A DNA stretch of 64,000 nt from an uncultured Eudoraea sp. (lineage in GTDB: Bacteria > Bacteroidota > Bacteroidia > Flavobacteriales > Flavobacteriaceae): the NCBI RefSeq assembly GCF_947490415.1, contig NZ_CANLGX010000001.1:310001-374000 (forward strand). Direction: 5' to 3'. This document shows positions 50,759 through 56,882 of this stretch, in pieces. Positions within the stretch are counted from its first letter, which is position 1, and each line of letters begins with the position of its first letter. A program made the position numbers and the translations under genes. The notes beneath the pieces were generated by a model. That model was given only the letters and a program-made list of their open reading frames with translations, was not told where the DNA came from and made no database searches.

Positions 50759-52930
50759 TTAGAAGTTAAATGTTGCTCCCATTAGAAAGTTTATTCCTGC
50801 CTGCGGGTAATACCCGGCACCTTCAATAGTAGTTATAGTTCCCGGATTGGAAAAATCGTCATCATAAGTAAAAAAGTAGCCATTGGATACAAATTTTGCA
50901 TCAAAAATATTATTAATCAGTCCTGTGAGTACAATGCTTTTTATGAATGAATTTATATTGAAAGTGTATTGTATATTAAAATCTGTTTGTGAATAGTCCT
51001 CAAGAACAGAGCCTTCTGAATCAATATTTCCCATAAATTGTTTTCCAACATATTTTGTGAGTAACGACATTTGAAATTTTTCATTTGGCATATACGTAAG
51101 AATGTTACCTACCACAATGTCAGGTGAGTAGGCAATATTGGTATTCCCCAAATTCTGTAACTCACCATCTCTCTGAAAAAGAAAATCAATATTCTTATTT
51201 GTGCTGAGTGCTATATTGGGTTGTAATTTGAAGCGCTTACCAATACTCATACTGGCATCAACTTCAAGACCAAGACGATAACTGTCACCAACATTTGCCC
51301 GCAATGGGGCTCCAACATCATTAAGTTCTCCAGTTAATACCAACTGATCTTTATACCTCATGTAATACAGATTGGTACTTAGCTGAACAGAAGGTGAGAC
51401 ATAACGCCAGCCCAGTTCAAAATCATTTAGTTTTTCCGGTTTAGGATTGCCATTCTCATAATCATTCCTATTGGGTTCACGGTTGGCTACTGCAAAGGAG
51501 AGGTATAAATTATTTGCATTATTTAGGTCATAGGTGACACCGACTTTAGGGTTAAAAAAATTAAATGTATCATCCACTACTCCAGTATCATCTCCATTTG
51601 CCTTGTATCTAACATTTCTAAATTGTAAATCTCCAAAAAGTTTCCAATTTTGAGAAATCTCATAATTTATTTTCCCAAACATATTAAAGTCGGCTTTTTT
51701 GGAATCATCATCATAATATCTATCCCTAATCATACTATTTCCCGCAAAACGCGCCCAAATTACTTCACCAAAATGATCTCCATTATAGGAATTCCACCCT
51801 CCTCCAATAATAAGGTTTGTCCTGTCTTTTTTATAATTAGCCGAAAATACAGTCCCGTAAAAATCATTATCCAGCCAACGGCGACGGATTAAATCTGTTG
51901 TATTCACTTCCTCCCCATCAACAACTATTGGTGAAAATCCATAGGTCGCAAAATCATCGTCTTCTCTGAATTGTTCAAAGTAACCCCGTCCTTTTGTATA
52001 ATGAAATGCAATATTTGTGCTCCATAAAGGTGATATAGCCTCATTCCAAAGTAGCTGAAAATGATCTTGTTTATAATTATCTTCCTCCTTGTCATAAAAC
52101 TGAGTATCCCCATTTTCATCAGTATATATTCCGGCAGGGTTAAAAGTCCGGTTAGTGGCAAGAGTTTCTGCATCAATGCCGAACCACGACTGGTAAGTAA
52201 CTTCGTGTCCTCCAAAAAGGAGCGCTTTAATTAATGTATTATCATCAACATAAGAGCCTTGTAAAAAATAGGAATCCAGTTTAGAAGAAGCCCTGTCAAT
52301 ATAGCCATCAGATGTTATTCTGGATAGTCTCCCGGAAATTTCAATATGTTCATTTAACAATCCTGTACTGAACTTAATATTGTTCCGCATCGTATTAAAG
52401 CTGCCATAGGAAGAGGAAATATGTCCATAAGCTTCCTGCGAAGTGGCATCTGTCAATATATTTAAACTTGCCCCAAAAGCCCCAGCTCCATTTGTAGATG
52501 TTCCTACGCCCCGTTGTAATTGAAGACTTTCTGTGGAAGATGCAAAATCGGGAAGATTTACCCAAAACGTACCATGTGATTCAGAATCGTTATAAGGTAT
52601 TCCATTTATAGTAACATTAACCCGGGTAGCATCACTACCTCTAACGCGTATTCCAGTATAGCCCACTCCAGCCCCGGCGTCTGAAGTTGTAACTACAGCG
52701 GGTAAAAAGTTCATGAGAACAGGGATATCCTGACCAAGGTTTCTTGGCATAATTTTATCTTTTTCTAAATTGGAAAACGTTACGGGAGTTTCCTGAGTAA
52801 CCCTTATTGCTGAAACAAAAACCTCATCCAACACAATTTTTTTTAGGGTAGTGGTATCAGATTCTTGTTGTTGAGCAAAAGTTTTTACGCCAATAGAAAT
52901 CAGGAAAAAAAATGTAATAAAAGCTTTCAT
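50759..52930 (-). CDS. TonB-dependent receptor, predicted thiamine uptake
   Basis: A 723-residue outer-membrane receptor. The start is at MKAFITFFFLISIGVKTFAQ, which gives a Sec signal; the earlier in-frame ATG (53044) falls within the riboswitch. The plug domain has VLMNFLPAVVTTSDAGAG and GIRVRGSDATRVNVTINGIP; the C-terminus ends in beta strands with terminal phenylalanine (FLMGATFNF). Because a TPP riboswitch lies in its leader, the likely substrate is thiamine or a precursor. Receptors with this control in Bacteroidota are known from comparative genomics as outer-membrane thiamine transporters. Genes for thiamine binding and transport lie upstream. Confidence 0.9.
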   Translation of the reverse strand: MKAFITFFFLISIGVKTFAQQQESDTTTLKKIVLDEVFVSAIRVTQETPVTFSNLEKDKIMPRNLGQDIPVLMNFLPAVVTTSDAGAGVGYTGIRVRGSDATRVNVTINGIPYNDSESHGTFWVNLPDFASSTESLQLQRGVGTSTNGAGAFGASLNILTDATSQEAYGHISSSYGSFNTMRNNIKFSTGLLNEHIEISGRLSRITSDGYIDRASSKLDSYFLQGSYVDDNTLIKALLFGGHEVTYQSWFGIDAETLATNRTFNPAGIYTDENGDTQFYDKEEDNYKQDHFQLLWNEAISPLWSTNIAFHYTKGRGYFEQFREDDDFATYGFSPIVVDGEEVNTTDLIRRRWLDNDFYGTVFSANYKKDRTNLIIGGGWNSYNGDHFGEVIWARFAGNSMIRDRYYDDDSKKADFNMFGKINYEISQNWKLFGDLQFRNVRYKANGDDTGVVDDTFNFFNPKVGVTYDLNNANNLYLSFAVANREPNRNDYENGNPKPEKLNDFELGWRYVSPSVQLSTNLYYMRYKDQLVLTGELNDVGAPLRANVGDSYRLGLEVDASMSIGKRFKLQPNIALSTNKNIDFLFQRDGELQNLGNTNIAYSPDIVVGNILTYMPNEKFQMSLLTKYVGKQFMGNIDSEGSVLEDYSQTDFNIQYTFNINSFIKSIVLTGLINNIFDAKFVSNGYFFTYDDDFSNPGTITTIEGAGYYPQAGINFLMGATFNF

Positions 52931-53017
52931 TCGTAGTTCAATTACACGAATAAAAGGGGTTCTATTCTGGTTTTTATGATTTTTTCTTTTCCTGAAGAGA
53001 CAGGAATAAATCCAAAT

Positions 53018-53163
53018 GGCGACTTTCGCCTCCCTTAGCAGCATTACCTGCCCAGGTTCCTTGGGTATAATCTCAGCTTATCCTGAAAGTATTGTAAAAA
53101 TCGTGTCTGATATTTACAGATTTATAGAATACTTTTTTTTCAGAAGTTCGCACCCCTTTTGAG
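53018..53163 (-). promoter_or_regulatory. TPP (thiamine pyrophosphate) riboswitch upstream of the TonB receptor
   Basis: On the minus strand the conserved elements appear in order: GGGGTGC (53156-53150), CTGAGA (53076-53071), ATACCC (53068-53063), GAACCTG (53059-53053), GGTAATGC (53048-53041) and AAGGGA (53036-53031). These are the core of the THI element. The P3-type arm between GGGGTGC and CTGAGA is long, about 73 bases. A perfect hairpin GGCGA-aag-TCGCC (53030-53018) follows directly, then TTCCTG/CAGGAA (53006-52989). The outer P1 stem could not be settled by eye. The region 52931-53271 (341 bases) holds this element and a promoter, no gene. Confidence 0.9.
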
Positions 53164-53169
53164 ATAAAA

Positions 53170-53177
53170 CAAAGTTA
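53170..53177 (-). promoter_or_regulatory. -7 element of the riboswitch transcript
   Basis: On the minus strand TAACTTTG, a TAnnTTTG match, just 14 bases upstream of the GGGGTGC of the TPP riboswitch. This places the transcription start so that the aptamer is at the 5' end of the RNA. No clear -33 TTG. Confidence 0.6.
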
Positions 53178-53271
53178 CGATGGTAGTTCCATTATTCATA
53201 ATAAAACCCCATAATTAAAATTGAACATACTCTGATAAATCCCTTTCTTCATAAAAACAGATCTCCCTAAA

Positions 53272-54813
53272 CTAAGTTGCCTGATGTGTCGGCTTCAAAA
53301 GGTCGTTTACTGTTTTTACGGGATTAAAAGTGAGTAAGGGAACTTCAACAAATATTGAATTCCAAAAGGCCATAGCCCCGTTCCAAAGTCCTGGTAATTC
53401 AAGGGCCTTTAGTTCTTTACCATCTTCTGTTTTTTGTGTGATAAACCCTTGTTTGGTATCTACAAAATTCAAGAGGTTATACTTCTCACCTCTAAAATTT
53501 CTTACTCCACATACAAGATCGACCGGGTTAAAATGTGTTGAATTCTTTAAAATAGCCATTTGGCTTTCATCTGAAGTATCCACCTGGGCAGATTCTACGA
53601 TTTGCAGTGAAATATGATCATGTGCGTCTCTTATCCAAAAAGGGCCGCCACCTGGTTCGCCTTCATTCTTAACCATCCCACAAATGCGGATGGGTCTGTT
53701 AATCTTGTCTTTTAAAATTTCCAATTGCTCTGCGATACTAAAACTTGAAAAACTATCCAAAAACCTAACATTGAGATCATTTTCTAAAAATGTTTTTATT
53801 TCGTGTAATTGTTCGCCATTAATGTCATTTCTATCCAACTGATCTGCATAGGCAAATGCCTTTTGTTGTATTTCCAGCAGCAAACCGGCAAGTACTTTCT
53901 TGCTAGTTGTGAGTGCAGCTGCATGTTTAGTTACTACTACATTATCAATATTTTTAATAAAGATAATATCGGCATTTTGTTCATTTAAGTTCTCAATAAG
54001 CGCTCCATGACCACCAGGTCTAAATAATAATGAGCCGTCATCCTTTTTAAACGGTTCATTTTCAAGAGTTACAGCTAAAGTATCCGTAGCAGGTTTTTGA
54101 TTTGAAAAGGTAACTTCAAATTCCGTTTTTGTAGCTTTCGATACCCTGGGGCCAACGGCTTCAAATTCCTTAGAAAATAAGGATTGGTGTTGTTCTGAAA
54201 TCGTAAAATGTAGTTTTGCCTTATTGTTTACATCAACATACCTTGAAGCTTCTTTTAAATGCTCTTCAAAGGCAGTTACAGTAAATTCCCCATAATTGTG
54301 AAAGGGTAAAAGTCCTTTTGGGTAAAAACCATAATTAAGGTTTTCTTCTAGTAGCATTTCACTTACAAAACGATATCTGATGTCATTTTCTGAACCGGCT
54401 TTATTTTTTATTCGTTTATGAACAATCTCATAAAAAGGAAATTTTTTAACTTGTTCGAAAAAGATTTTTAAATCTGTATCATCTAATCTGTCTACATAGG
54501 TATCTACATCTTCGACACTAGGATCATATTGCTCCAAAAAGTTAAAGAGGGATTTGAACATTCTGGATGCAGCACCCGATGCCGGAACAAATTTGAGTAA
54601 ACTCAAAAGCCTTTTTAGTTCTTCGAACTTATTCACTAACTCTTTCTCCCGGGCTTTACTTAATTTCATAATTCCATCGGAAACTATTGCGGCCTTCTCC
54701 AACCTTACAAATGGTATCCCTTCTTTAAAGGTCTCTATCTGATCCAGAACCTTTTCTTTTGAGATTCCTTTTTCCTGTAGTTGTTGTAAATCCATTGGTG
54801 AAAACTCAATCAT
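53272..54813 (-). CDS. DUF4301 protein, nucleotidyltransferase-like
   Basis: A 513-residue cytoplasmic protein. Its start overlaps the stop of the kinase by 4 bases (ATGA), so the two are coupled. Two stretches recall UDP-sugar pyrophosphorylases: FVPASGAASRMFK (75-87), in the place of the sugar-phosphate/NTP loop, and RPGGHGALIENL with IFIKNIDNVV (about 265-292), where pyrophosphorylases have a glycine-rich loop and an N-x-D. Later parts include GMVKNEGEPGGGPFWI. The family has no assigned function that I know. Its place in a thiamine uptake locus suggests a salvage role, but this is inference. Confidence 0.85.
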   Translation of the reverse strand: MIEFSPMDLQQLQEKGISKEKVLDQIETFKEGIPFVRLEKAAIVSDGIMKLSKAREKELVNKFEELKRLLSLLKFVPASGAASRMFKSLFNFLEQYDPSVEDVDTYVDRLDDTDLKIFFEQVKKFPFYEIVHKRIKNKAGSENDIRYRFVSEMLLEENLNYGFYPKGLLPFHNYGEFTVTAFEEHLKEASRYVDVNNKAKLHFTISEQHQSLFSKEFEAVGPRVSKATKTEFEVTFSNQKPATDTLAVTLENEPFKKDDGSLLFRPGGHGALIENLNEQNADIIFIKNIDNVVVTKHAAALTTSKKVLAGLLLEIQQKAFAYADQLDRNDINGEQLHEIKTFLENDLNVRFLDSFSSFSIAEQLEILKDKINRPIRICGMVKNEGEPGGGPFWIRDAHDHISLQIVESAQVDTSDESQMAILKNSTHFNPVDLVCGVRNFRGEKYNLLNFVDTKQGFITQKTEDGKELKALELPGLWNGAMAFWNSIFVEVPLLTFNPVKTVNDLLKPTHQAT

Positions 54814-55373
54814 TTGCCGAGAAATTTATCGATAGATTTAATAGCCAGCGCAAGCCTTTTTCCATTGTCCCCATTTAAAATAATAAAATTCCTATCATAC
54901 TTTTCCAATGTTTCTTTAAAATAGAGAAACATGCGTTCTCGCTCATTAGGTTTATCCCGAAGATCGTCTTTTTCCCAGGGAATATCTATTGAAGTTAATA
55001 AATAAAGATCGTATCTATTCTGCAAAGCGTATTTTTCCAGAATAGGATCGCAATAACCAAGGTAATATGCTTCAGAATATACTTTGGTCTCTAAAAGATC
55101 TGTATCGCAAATAAGCAGGTCATTTGCCTTTTCCGTCAAATAATTTTCCAAGCGAATTTGGCCTTCTGCAATAGGTAGTAAATCATGTGGTTCACAAGTT
55201 CTTTGTTCTTTATTCCACTTTTCCTGTAAATATTCGCGCGCGTATTCCGGCACCCATTCGGTTTGATAGTGATTAGCAAGTTCCTGAGCAAGGGTAGTTT
55301 TACCTGTTGATTCAGGACCAAACAGAACTACTTTAATAATGTCAGCGGGCTTTTGTTTAAGTTTTTCTTCCAT
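54810..55373 (-). CDS. NadR-like P-loop kinase, possibly thiamine or nucleoside kinase
   Basis: A 187-residue AAA_28-type kinase resembling the ribosylnicotinamide kinase domain of NadR. The Walker A is FGPESTGKTTLAQEL (18-32), followed by WVPEYAREYL, LLICDTDLLETKVYSE and SIDIPWEKDDLRDKPNERERM. It overlaps the PnuC gene by 46 bases and DUF4301 by 4. In NAD salvage, PnuC with such a kinase traps nicotinamide riboside. Here, next to a thiamine-binding protein and a riboswitch-controlled receptor, it may phosphorylate thiamine to hold it in the cell. The NAD route remains the main alternative. Confidence 0.88.
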   Translation of the reverse strand: MEEKLKQKPADIIKVVLFGPESTGKTTLAQELANHYQTEWVPEYAREYLQEKWNKEQRTCEPHDLLPIAEGQIRLENYLTEKANDLLICDTDLLETKVYSEAYYLGYCDPILEKYALQNRYDLYLLTSIDIPWEKDDLRDKPNERERMFLYFKETLEKYDRNFIILNGDNGKRLALAIKSIDKFLGK

Positions 55374-55966
55374 GCCATATAACCGTAAATGGCGATTATG
55401 GTGAATAAAAAATATTGAAGTGATGTAAAAATAAGTCCTTTATACAAATATAAAGGAACTGTAATTACATTACCAATAATCCAATAGGTCCAATTTTCCA
55501 ATTTTTTTTTGGCCATAAGCCACATCCCCACAAAGAAAATAGCTGTTGTAAGCGTGTCAACATAAGCTGTCCAACTATTAAATTTATCAAATAAGGTATA
55601 TACAAGAGAAACAAAAACAACCGCACTAATAAACAGGAATATTGACCATTTTTTCTCTTGGCTGTTCGTTTTTGTAATTGGGATAAAATGGTTGGTATCT
55701 ACTTTTCGTGTCCATATGTACCACCCTATAATACTCATGGAAAAGTAATATGCGTTTATAAGCATGTCACCCAATAACCCGTATACCCAAAGAATATATA
55801 CAAAGATCCCTGTGTTAATTATTCCGGTAGGAAATACAAGGATATTTTCTCTTTTTGCATACCATACACTTAAAAACCCGAAAACAACGCCAATCATTTC
55901 AAGGATGATTAGAAACGTAGGGATATCCTGGTATTGAGCAAAGACCCAATCAAAAATCTGGTTCAT
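55328..55966 (-). CDS. PnuC-family permease, probable thiamine transporter (PnuT-like)
   Basis: A 212-residue inner-membrane facilitator with about seven hydrophobic segments. Family motifs are YYFSMSIIGWYIWTRK (about 73-88) and NWTYWIIGNVITVPLYL (about 157-173) with the substrate-stacking tryptophans. PnuC proteins take up nicotinamide riboside; relatives called PnuT, often under TPP riboswitches, take up thiamine. The locus favours thiamine. The start overlaps the thiamine-binding gene by 17 bases and its end overlaps the kinase. Confidence 0.9.
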   Translation of the reverse strand: MNQIFDWVFAQYQDIPTFLIILEMIGVVFGFLSVWYAKRENILVFPTGIINTGIFVYILWVYGLLGDMLINAYYFSMSIIGWYIWTRKVDTNHFIPITKTNSQEKKWSIFLFISAVVFVSLVYTLFDKFNSWTAYVDTLTTAIFFVGMWLMAKKKLENWTYWIIGNVITVPLYLYKGLIFTSLQYFLFTIIAIYGYMAWKKNLNKSPLTLLK

Positions 55967-56210
55967 AATTGCTTCGGTCCGTTTTTACGATTTTGATATA
56001 CATTAAACCATTTTCCATTAATTCCAAAGCAAGTTTAATTTCTCTATTAAGTAGTTTCATTATATCATCATAATCTCCATAAATCTGTGTACTTAAAGGA
56101 TTTTCCAGGACGGTAAAACCGGAGGCCCGGATTTTTTTGATAAAACCTATAATCAGCTCTTCATAATTATCCTGTAGCGGGCTTAAGGTCAGTTCAACAG
56201 ATATATTCAT
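55950..56210 (-). CDS. thiamine-binding protein, YkoF/MTH1187 family
   Basis: An 86-residue small cytoplasmic protein of the thiamine-binding (formerly DUF77) family: MNISVELTLSPLQDNYEELI with GFTVLENPLSTQIYGDYDDI is characteristic. YkoF of Bacillus binds thiamine with two such domains; this one is a single-domain form, probably a dimer or tetramer. It overlaps the PnuC gene by 17 bases. It probably keeps or passes on thiamine after entry. Confidence 0.88.
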   Translation of the reverse strand: MNISVELTLSPLQDNYEELIIGFIKKIRASGFTVLENPLSTQIYGDYDDIMKLLNREIKLALELMENGLMYIKIVKTDRSNYEPDF

Positions 56211-56243: not shown

Positions 56244-56882
56244 TTACGCTTCTTTTTTAATCGCATATACACAGGTAAATTCTTCAAATTCCAGAAAAGT
56301 AATATTATAGGCAGATGTACGCCCATCATAGCTGATAATACCCCTAGTAGTAGTATCGGTGTTTTTAAAATCATGAATATAAATATGATCCATAAAACTT
56401 AAGCCGTGAGTGGCATATATCTTATAAAGAGACTCTTTGGCGCCCCAAATAATAGTGAGTTTCTTAACGAGTTCCTTTGCCTTTTTAATATCGGCATATG
56501 CCTCCATAGGTGTAAACTTATGCCCAATAAGGGTTATTTTATCCCTTTGTTTCTCGATATCAATCCCAACCTCATCTTTCTGACTTACAATTATCCCTGT
56601 AAAATGATACGAATGCGTAATGGAGATATGATTTCCATCTTTCAGATGTGGCTTTCCGGCCTCGTCATAAAAAAGATCACTATCTACATAACCCGCCAGC
56701 CCCATTAAGTGACGGATACTTAAAAATCCTCTCCTATGGAGTTCAGACTTCATACCATTCATTCTAAGCTGGCATTTATTGGTAAGGTCAATATTTAAGG
56801 ATAGTTCCTTTTCAGATTCCGTAATCTTCCAAATGTATACCTTAGTATATGGGTTTACTGTTATAGTTTTGTAAAGAGGCAT
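56244..56882 (-). CDS. 4'-phosphopantetheinyl transferase superfamily protein
   Basis: About 212 residues. The start is set at MPLYKTITVN because an earlier ATG (56996) would overlap the divergent ahcY start and its promoter. The enzyme moves phosphopantetheine from CoA to a carrier protein. Motifs are ISITHSYHFTGIIVS, VGIDIEKQRDKI (metal-binding Asp and Glu) and TIIWGAKESLYKIYA (W-x-x-K-E-S-x-x-K). It is 33 bases upstream of the thiamine-binding gene, so it may be cotranscribed with the locus, although function does not require it. Confidence 0.9.
   Translation of the reverse strand: MPLYKTITVNPYTKVYIWKITESEKELSLNIDLTNKCQLRMNGMKSELHRRGFLSIRHLMGLAGYVDSDLFYDEAGKPHLKDGNHISITHSYHFTGIIVSQKDEVGIDIEKQRDKITLIGHKFTPMEAYADIKKAKELVKKLTIIWGAKESLYKIYATHGLSFMDHIYIHDFKNTDTTTRGIISYDGRTSAYNITFLEFEEFTCVYAIKKEA

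Follow-up and report, generated by a model that had tools for sequence, protein, structure and literature searches.

The window analysed here, a 64,000-nucleotide stretch of contig NZ_CANLGX010000001.1 from an uncultured Eudoraea sp. (Flavobacteriaceae), likely contains a locus for the scavenging and trapping of thiamine in a probably thiamine-auxotrophic flavobacterium, as indicated by its gene content and by comparison with related genomes. The minus strand carries, in this order, genes for a thiamine-binding protein (ThBP), a PnuC-family permease, a NadR-like kinase and a DUF4301 protein, overlapping by 17, 46 and 4 bases according to the list of open reading frames (ORFs). Next on this strand, 3' of DUF4301, come a leader that contains a THI element and the gene for a TonB-dependent receptor, as a first-pass annotation of this DNA had described. 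Thiamine would cross the outer membrane through the TonB receptor and the inner membrane through the PnuT-type permease, roles that deletion phenotypes support for the Bacteroides counterparts, and ThBP probably hands over or buffers the vitamin. The kinase would convert thiamine to thiamine monophosphate (TMP), trapping it in the cell, and the chromosomally encoded ThiL would convert TMP to thiamine pyrophosphate (TPP), as pathway gaps and gene complementarity suggest. The receptor would be controlled by a variant of the THI element devoid of the dinucleotide that contacts pyrophosphate, and DUF4301, with its predicted nucleotidyltransferase fold, would be coupled to the kinase.

The kinase probably acts in place of thiamine pyrophosphokinase (TPK), as a thiamine kinase that supplies ThiL with TMP. 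The genome containing the window, whose assembly is listed as 100% complete, encodes ThiL; TPK, ThiC and ThiE were searched for in it and none was found. The comparison comprised 159 genomes of the family, 149 genomes of the class and 28 named loci tested for TPK. Among the family genomes, ThiL is kept in 158 and the kinase was found in 151, TPK was not found in 146, and ThiC was not found in 127, leaving 32 with thiC. TPK and ThiE are both absent in 94 family genomes, and 93 of these 94 possess the kinase; the sole kinase-less genome among them (G227) is 81% complete and carries ThiC. The kinase is also present in all 93 family genomes lacking TPK, ThiE and ThiC. Since its base rate is 151/159, avoidance between kinase and TPK is the sharper test. 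TPK occurs in 6 of 8 kinase-less versus 7 of 151 kinase-bearing family genomes (Fisher p=2.2e-6) and in 26 of 75 kinase-less versus 2 of 74 kinase-bearing class genomes (Fisher p=3.1e-7), both of the latter genomes with kinase and TPK belonging to one genus. Two family genomes have neither enzyme: G168, with ThiC and ThiE, and the above-mentioned G227.

Among the named loci, TPK is encoded in none of the 15 genomes with a free kinase gene, and in all five in which PnuC adjoins DUF4301 with no kinase between them (Flavobacterium proteolyticum, F. urocaniciphilum, F. cauense, F. selenitireducens and the metagenome-assembled genome (MAG) L313; absence of the kinase was judged at this locus). In G164, whose riboswitch has a canonical-type arm, TPK directly follows PnuC and occupies the slot of the kinase. 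The kinase frame of G301, a genome with TPK, ThiC and ThiE, is broken by three stops (L128:8001-8560). Presence of the kinase where a TMP source is otherwise missing, and its absence where TPK serves, is thus the prevailing but not the uniform pattern: seven family genomes and eight fusion loci have both kinase and TPK. Taken together, the pathway gaps and gene complementarity revealed by comparative genomics indicate that the kinase is probably a non-orthologous substitute for TPK.

Several observations weigh against this interpretation. By sequence, the kinase is closest to the nicotinamide-riboside kinase of NadR. Kinase and TPK occur together in seven family genomes, and 49 of the 149 class genomes have neither. 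The Fisher tests count related genomes as independent; a ThiL tree of 40 of the 158 genomes with ThiL gave seven changes for the kinase and seven for TPK, but it is poorly resolved (stars on just 4 of its 37 inner branches), and a sign test on independent losses is without power. Genomes G164, G269 and G291 keep ThiL although TPK is present and both kinase and ThiE are absent, so ThiL alone is no proof of a TMP supply. No THI element was found within 10 kb for 50 of 77 class-set kinase genes, and the role of DUF4301 is left unexplained by the thiamine-trapping model. Contrary to simple replacement, all eight of the named loci with a kinase-DUF4301 fusion that were tested have TPK in the genome. 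Such fusions, single frames of 704-758 amino acids, are present in nine loci (L205, L226, L237, L247, L250, L264, L288, L303 and L322), most of them titled Flavobacterium. Among five fused loci of the fetched family sets, TPK was found in G065, G101 and G151 and not in G154 and G286. Given TPK in all eight tested genomes of the named fusion loci, the fused kinase may have a different task. The contig of L322, which carries both the fusion and a variant THI element, is titled as a Klebsiella pneumoniae MAG and is probably mis-binned.

NadR is the nearest sequence match of the kinase (E 8e-15), which shares with it the homology and Walker A motif of the ribosylnicotinamide kinase (RNK) domain. 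The match covers only the RNK half: the window kinase is homologous over the kinase domain (PDB 1lw7, 8x7f, 9x6f) and shares its motifs, but it lacks the nicotinamide mononucleotide (NMN) adenylyltransferase domain of NadR, lies in a thiamine gene context and complements TPK. An alignment of the kinase was made, from whose residues the substrate choice could not be read, and the open-licence PMC literature yielded no description of this kinase as a thiamine kinase. The RNK homology and the annotation of the permease as PnuC would suit a nicotinamide-riboside salvage unit of PnuC, kinase and DUF4301, with the thiamine receptor a mere neighbour. The kinase would then produce NMN and DUF4301 would be the adenylyltransferase, together forming a NadR of new composition, consistent with the nucleotidyltransferase fold of DUF4301 and the kinase-DUF4301 fusions. 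NAD salvage is nevertheless an unlikely function, because it explains neither the avoidance between kinase and TPK nor the loss of the kinase with retention of PnuC and DUF4301 in TPK genomes, and it gives no account of ThBP, of TPK in the kinase's slot, of the missing TMP source in the genome of the window, or of the THI linkage and the TMP-TENI neighbours in other families. The first-pass annotation had set against its thiamine model the possibility that the gene set lies mostly beside NAD-salvage genes; a Pfam scan of other-family neighbours, comprising the upstream ones of 15 of 20 loci and a few downstream, gave no match to NAD-synthesis families. Less probable still is a true pyrophosphokinase converting thiamine to TPP in one step. 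It would explain the complementarity with TPK equally well, but ThiL is almost universally kept, and the nearest relatives, the NadR RNK domains, convert the riboside to NMN by transferring one phosphate, according to an excerpt of PMC7221760.

Comparison of the gene order, proposed in the first-pass annotation, revealed that it recurs in the family. Among 40 fetched family loci, PnuC adjoins the kinase in 39, DUF4301 does so in 37 (fused in 5), ThBP is located upstream in 31, and 38 have a THI element within the sequence retrieved, which spans at most about 8 kb on each side. PnuC adjoins the kinase in 17 of 20 loci of other families, and neither DUF4301 nor ThBP was found beside the kinase in any of these 20. 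Of the 15 named loci with a free kinase and no TPK, 13 encode ThBP, the locus ending inside PnuC in both misses; among 20 loci with TPK, none does. The class set (own family included) has 77 kinase genes, 25 of which have a THI element within 5 kb; at a range of 10 kb the number is 27, the element in every case being downstream and on the same strand. A gene of the TMP-TENI family, above the Pfam cut-off, precedes the PnuC-kinase pair in L078, L083, L092, L093 and L095 of other families, and a match below the cut-off precedes PnuC in L079. Uptake followed by trapping through the kinase, as originally suggested, is thus supported by the anticorrelation of kinase and TPK, the position of nearby THI elements downstream of the kinase on the same strand, and the TMP-synthase-family gene upstream of PnuC-kinase elsewhere. 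Other genes adjoining the PnuC-kinase pair in other families include PcrB and, in L086, phosphopantetheinyl transferase. In another family, the kinase gene directly follows a gene of the dehydrogenase E1/transketolase type (L088:6006-8534); such enzymes usually need TPP.

The leader of the receptor gene had been assigned a TPP riboswitch. The Rfam scan of the window at the gathering threshold reported no THI element, and in a sensitive scan the element scores 28.6 bits, short of the RF00059 cut-off of 54.3. A model constructed from the window element and 24 relatives recognizes it with E 2.7e-15 (the element being itself a member of the model). Applied to the 159 family genomes, it detects elements in 156, that of the window being the sole one found in its own genome. 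The Rfam scores are 75.7-78.7 for thiC-linked elements (5 of 5) and 31.3-45.5 for receptor-linked relatives (15 of 15). The aminopyrimidine-binding core is kept, with GGGG and GCTGAGA in all 25 aligned elements and GGGGTGC in 24 (GGGGCGC in L111). A pattern scan of GTDB genomes yielded at least 118 stretches; among the 108 of these that are followed by 600 or more bases, 106 run into a receptor gene. Complements of at least 6 bases to a P2 strand occur within 160 bases downstream in 65 of 110 leaders, versus 4.9 expected from single-base shuffles, and the region contains two terminator-like hairpins, counted over both strands (0.4 expected). The downstream complement of P2 and the terminator-like hairpin suggest a working switch. 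A search for a sigma-70 promoter in the window leader found none (1.4 expected). A chance origin of the THI element was ruled out by its presence in 156 genomes, the arm covariation and the downstream complements. The element is therefore real, as first annotated, but the assignment to the ordinary TPP type did not hold.

The difference lies in the P4/P5 arm. One canonical arm from the family, that of L165, reads GAACCTGATGCGGTTAGTACCGCCGAAGGGA. Two receptor-linked forms were distinguished, both shorter than the canonical arm and devoid of the C-G dinucleotide in J5/4: V1, with a P5 of 5 base pairs between a single G (J4/5) and a single A (J5/4), and V2, with a two-base J4/5 ending in G and a single U as J5/4. 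As in the window, the arm is variant in 92 of the 93 family genomes whose receptor-linked element was examined among the loci given, the exception being L127 (G164). The variant element L045 (G159) is outside this count, having no receptor gene in its downstream stretch. The thiC-linked arms are canonical in all nine examined of the 32 genomes with thiC, and each of these nine genomes has a variant receptor-linked element. Among the matches listed, taken by a pattern that fixes the arm length and not the letters of P5, 38 distinct V1 arms pair in 99.0% of cells, with 45 cells changed on both sides, and their covariation is 0.469 versus 0.176 when shuffled (0 of 500 shuffles); the V2 arms among these matches agree, with fewer data (13 arms). 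The pair beside the V1 junction uses six pair types; the junction-flanking bases, being paired, cannot be the lost C-G. The elements at 26 loci outside the family comprise 7 variant, 14 canonical-type and 5 unparsed by the pattern; those with a receptor gene downstream are variant in 6 cases and canonical-type in 12. The arm of L167 was read by eye, and the THI-like elements L171 and L182, whose arms fit neither the canonical form nor V1 or V2, were left unclassified. A strict pairing of the variant arm with the kinase was considered and rejected, since the kinase-less TPK genomes G150, G248, G269, G291 and G299 carry the variant arm and mixed elements occur in other families. A MAG titled Thermoanaerobaculia (L269) carries a variant element, a receptor and a kinase relative, through either transfer or mis-binning.

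In common with the RF00059 TPP riboswitch, the receptor-linked element has P2, P3 and the aminopyrimidine-binding CTGAGA core, but it has no equivalents of C77 and G78, its junction consisting instead of the V1 or V2 bases. According to excerpts of PMC7824784 and PMC3764141, C77 and G78 are located in J5/4 and touch the pyrophosphate and its metal. Without this pyrophosphate-contact dinucleotide, the receptor-linked element differs, judged by its sequence, from an ordinary TPP riboswitch. There is close to an even chance that the variant still senses TPP, the pyrophosphate being held by a compact junction and Mg2+. The unaltered pyrimidine-binding core is consistent with this, as is the occurrence of canonical and variant arms alike ahead of receptor genes in other families; the absent CG contact, the flanking pair that covaries as a base pair, and the CG retained in all nine thiC-linked copies of the same genomes argue against it. 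Tentatively, and with a probability somewhat under one half, the receptor leaders carry a THI element that has lost the pyrophosphate pocket and responds to thiamine or TMP instead of TPP. Such a switch would operate alongside the canonical TPP riboswitches that the same genomes have on thiC, and its partner would be the putative NadR-type thiamine kinase. Thiamine and TMP, which lack phosphates, are thought to touch just half of the site of the normal aptamer, as stated in an excerpt of PMC4775224. Decay of the element into something no longer a switch, suggested by the low Rfam scores, is very improbable in view of the covariation, the wide conservation of the core and the frequent downstream complements. 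The open-licence PMC literature yielded no description of this riboswitch variant.

DUF4301 has, according to its AlphaFold model (predicted local distance difference test score 92.1, predicted template modelling score 0.91), the fold of UDP-sugar pyrophosphorylases. The model matches UDP-glucose and UDP-GlcNAc pyrophosphorylases (Foldseek E 2.6e-11; Z 21.8, root-mean-square deviation 3.3 over 333 residues). With the eukaryotic-type enzymes (PF01704; PDB 3r2w, 2i5k) DUF4301 shares this fold and a PVKT-x-x-DLL-type motif, and some of its conserved motifs align with yeast Ugp1 (weak sequence match, E 0.46), but it is only 12 to 20% identical to the listed structures and its Pfam UDPGP match, at 21.2 bits, falls just under the cut-off of 22. 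The modelled fold indicates that DUF4301 is probably a nucleotidyltransferase, with TMP, NMN or a sugar phosphate as candidate substrates. The earlier suggestion that it performs a further nucleotide-dependent step is supported by the fold; however, DUF4301 is retained at five loci where the kinase is gone and is not beside the kinase in any of the 20 other-family loci. Since DUF4301 persists at loci without the kinase, it does not just perform the kinase's second step, and a dependence of DUF4301 on the kinase was not supported. No function described for DUF4301 was found in the open-licence PMC literature.

The features of the locus are listed in Table 1. The Pfam score of ThBP for PF01910 (Thiamine_BP), 24.4 bits, is just below the cut-off of 24.9. 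The receptor probably starts at 52930 rather than at 53044, where the ORF opens, as suggested by a signal-peptide-like start. The phosphopantetheinyl transferase gene, separated by 33 bases from the downstream ThBP gene, may be the first gene of the operon. A divergent S-adenosylhomocysteine hydrolase gene (PF05221; 56966-58282 of the window) is located upstream and is a frequent neighbour, for example in loci L039-L066. The closest named relative among the fetched loci is an uncultured Eudoraea MAG (L212), with locus proteins 89-97% identical.

Table 1. Features of the putative thiamine-scavenging locus (window coordinates)
Feature	Position	Strand	Evidence
4'-phosphopantetheinyl transferase gene	56244..56881 (about 56881, inferred start; longest ORF to 56996)	-	PF01648 E 5e-8
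Thiamine-binding protein ThBP, 86 amino acids	55950..56210	-	PF01910-like
PnuC/PnuT-family permease, 212 amino acids; 17-base overlap with ThBP	55328..55966	-	PF04973 E 8e-52; PDB 4qtn E 5e-9
NadR-RNK-like kinase, 187 amino acids, Walker A GPESTGKTT; 46-base overlap with PnuC	54810..55373	-	PF13521 AAA_28 E 7e-44
DUF4301, 513 amino acids; 4-base overlap with kinase	53272..54813	-	PF14134 E 4e-215
THI element (variant), long P3 insert	53023..53164 (RF00059 match 53014-53167)	-	RF00059 28.6 bits; own model R1 E 2.7e-15
P4/P5 arm GAACCTG-GGCAG-GTAATG-CTGCT-A-AGGGA, without J5/4 CG dinucleotide	53031..53059	-	same stem in minimum-energy fold
Terminator-like hairpin directly 3' of arm	53018..53030	-	pattern match only
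Candidate expression platform CCCCTTTT, complement of P2 AAAAGGGG (53153-53160)	52952..52959	-	fold
TonB-dependent receptor, proposed thiamine receptor	50759..52930	-	PF00593 barrel, PF07715 plug

Overall, the locus resembles the OMthi/PnuT/tnr3 operons of Bacteroides, which, according to an excerpt of Costliow and Degnan (2017, PMC5613172), likewise comprise a THI-linked TonB receptor, a PnuC-family permease and a gene for a thiamine-phosphorylating enzyme. Here, however, the place of tnr3 (TPK) is taken by a NadR-like kinase, accompanied by ThBP and DUF4301, and the riboswitch arm is altered relative to the canonical form. The permease of the window belongs to the PnuC sequence family, and its context suggests that, like PnuT, it transports thiamine. 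To judge by the title of a 2018 paper of Jaehme and colleagues, PnuT reportedly works by facilitated diffusion.

Many of these flavobacteria seem to have lost thiamine synthesis, yet most of them are without TPK, the enzyme to which textbooks assign the salvage of the vitamin. The NadR-like kinase is a concrete candidate to fill this gap; together with a riboswitch variant below the Rfam thresholds, it opens vitamin B1 scavenging by a major environmental group to direct testing, and the variant may offer a THI element whose ligand has changed.

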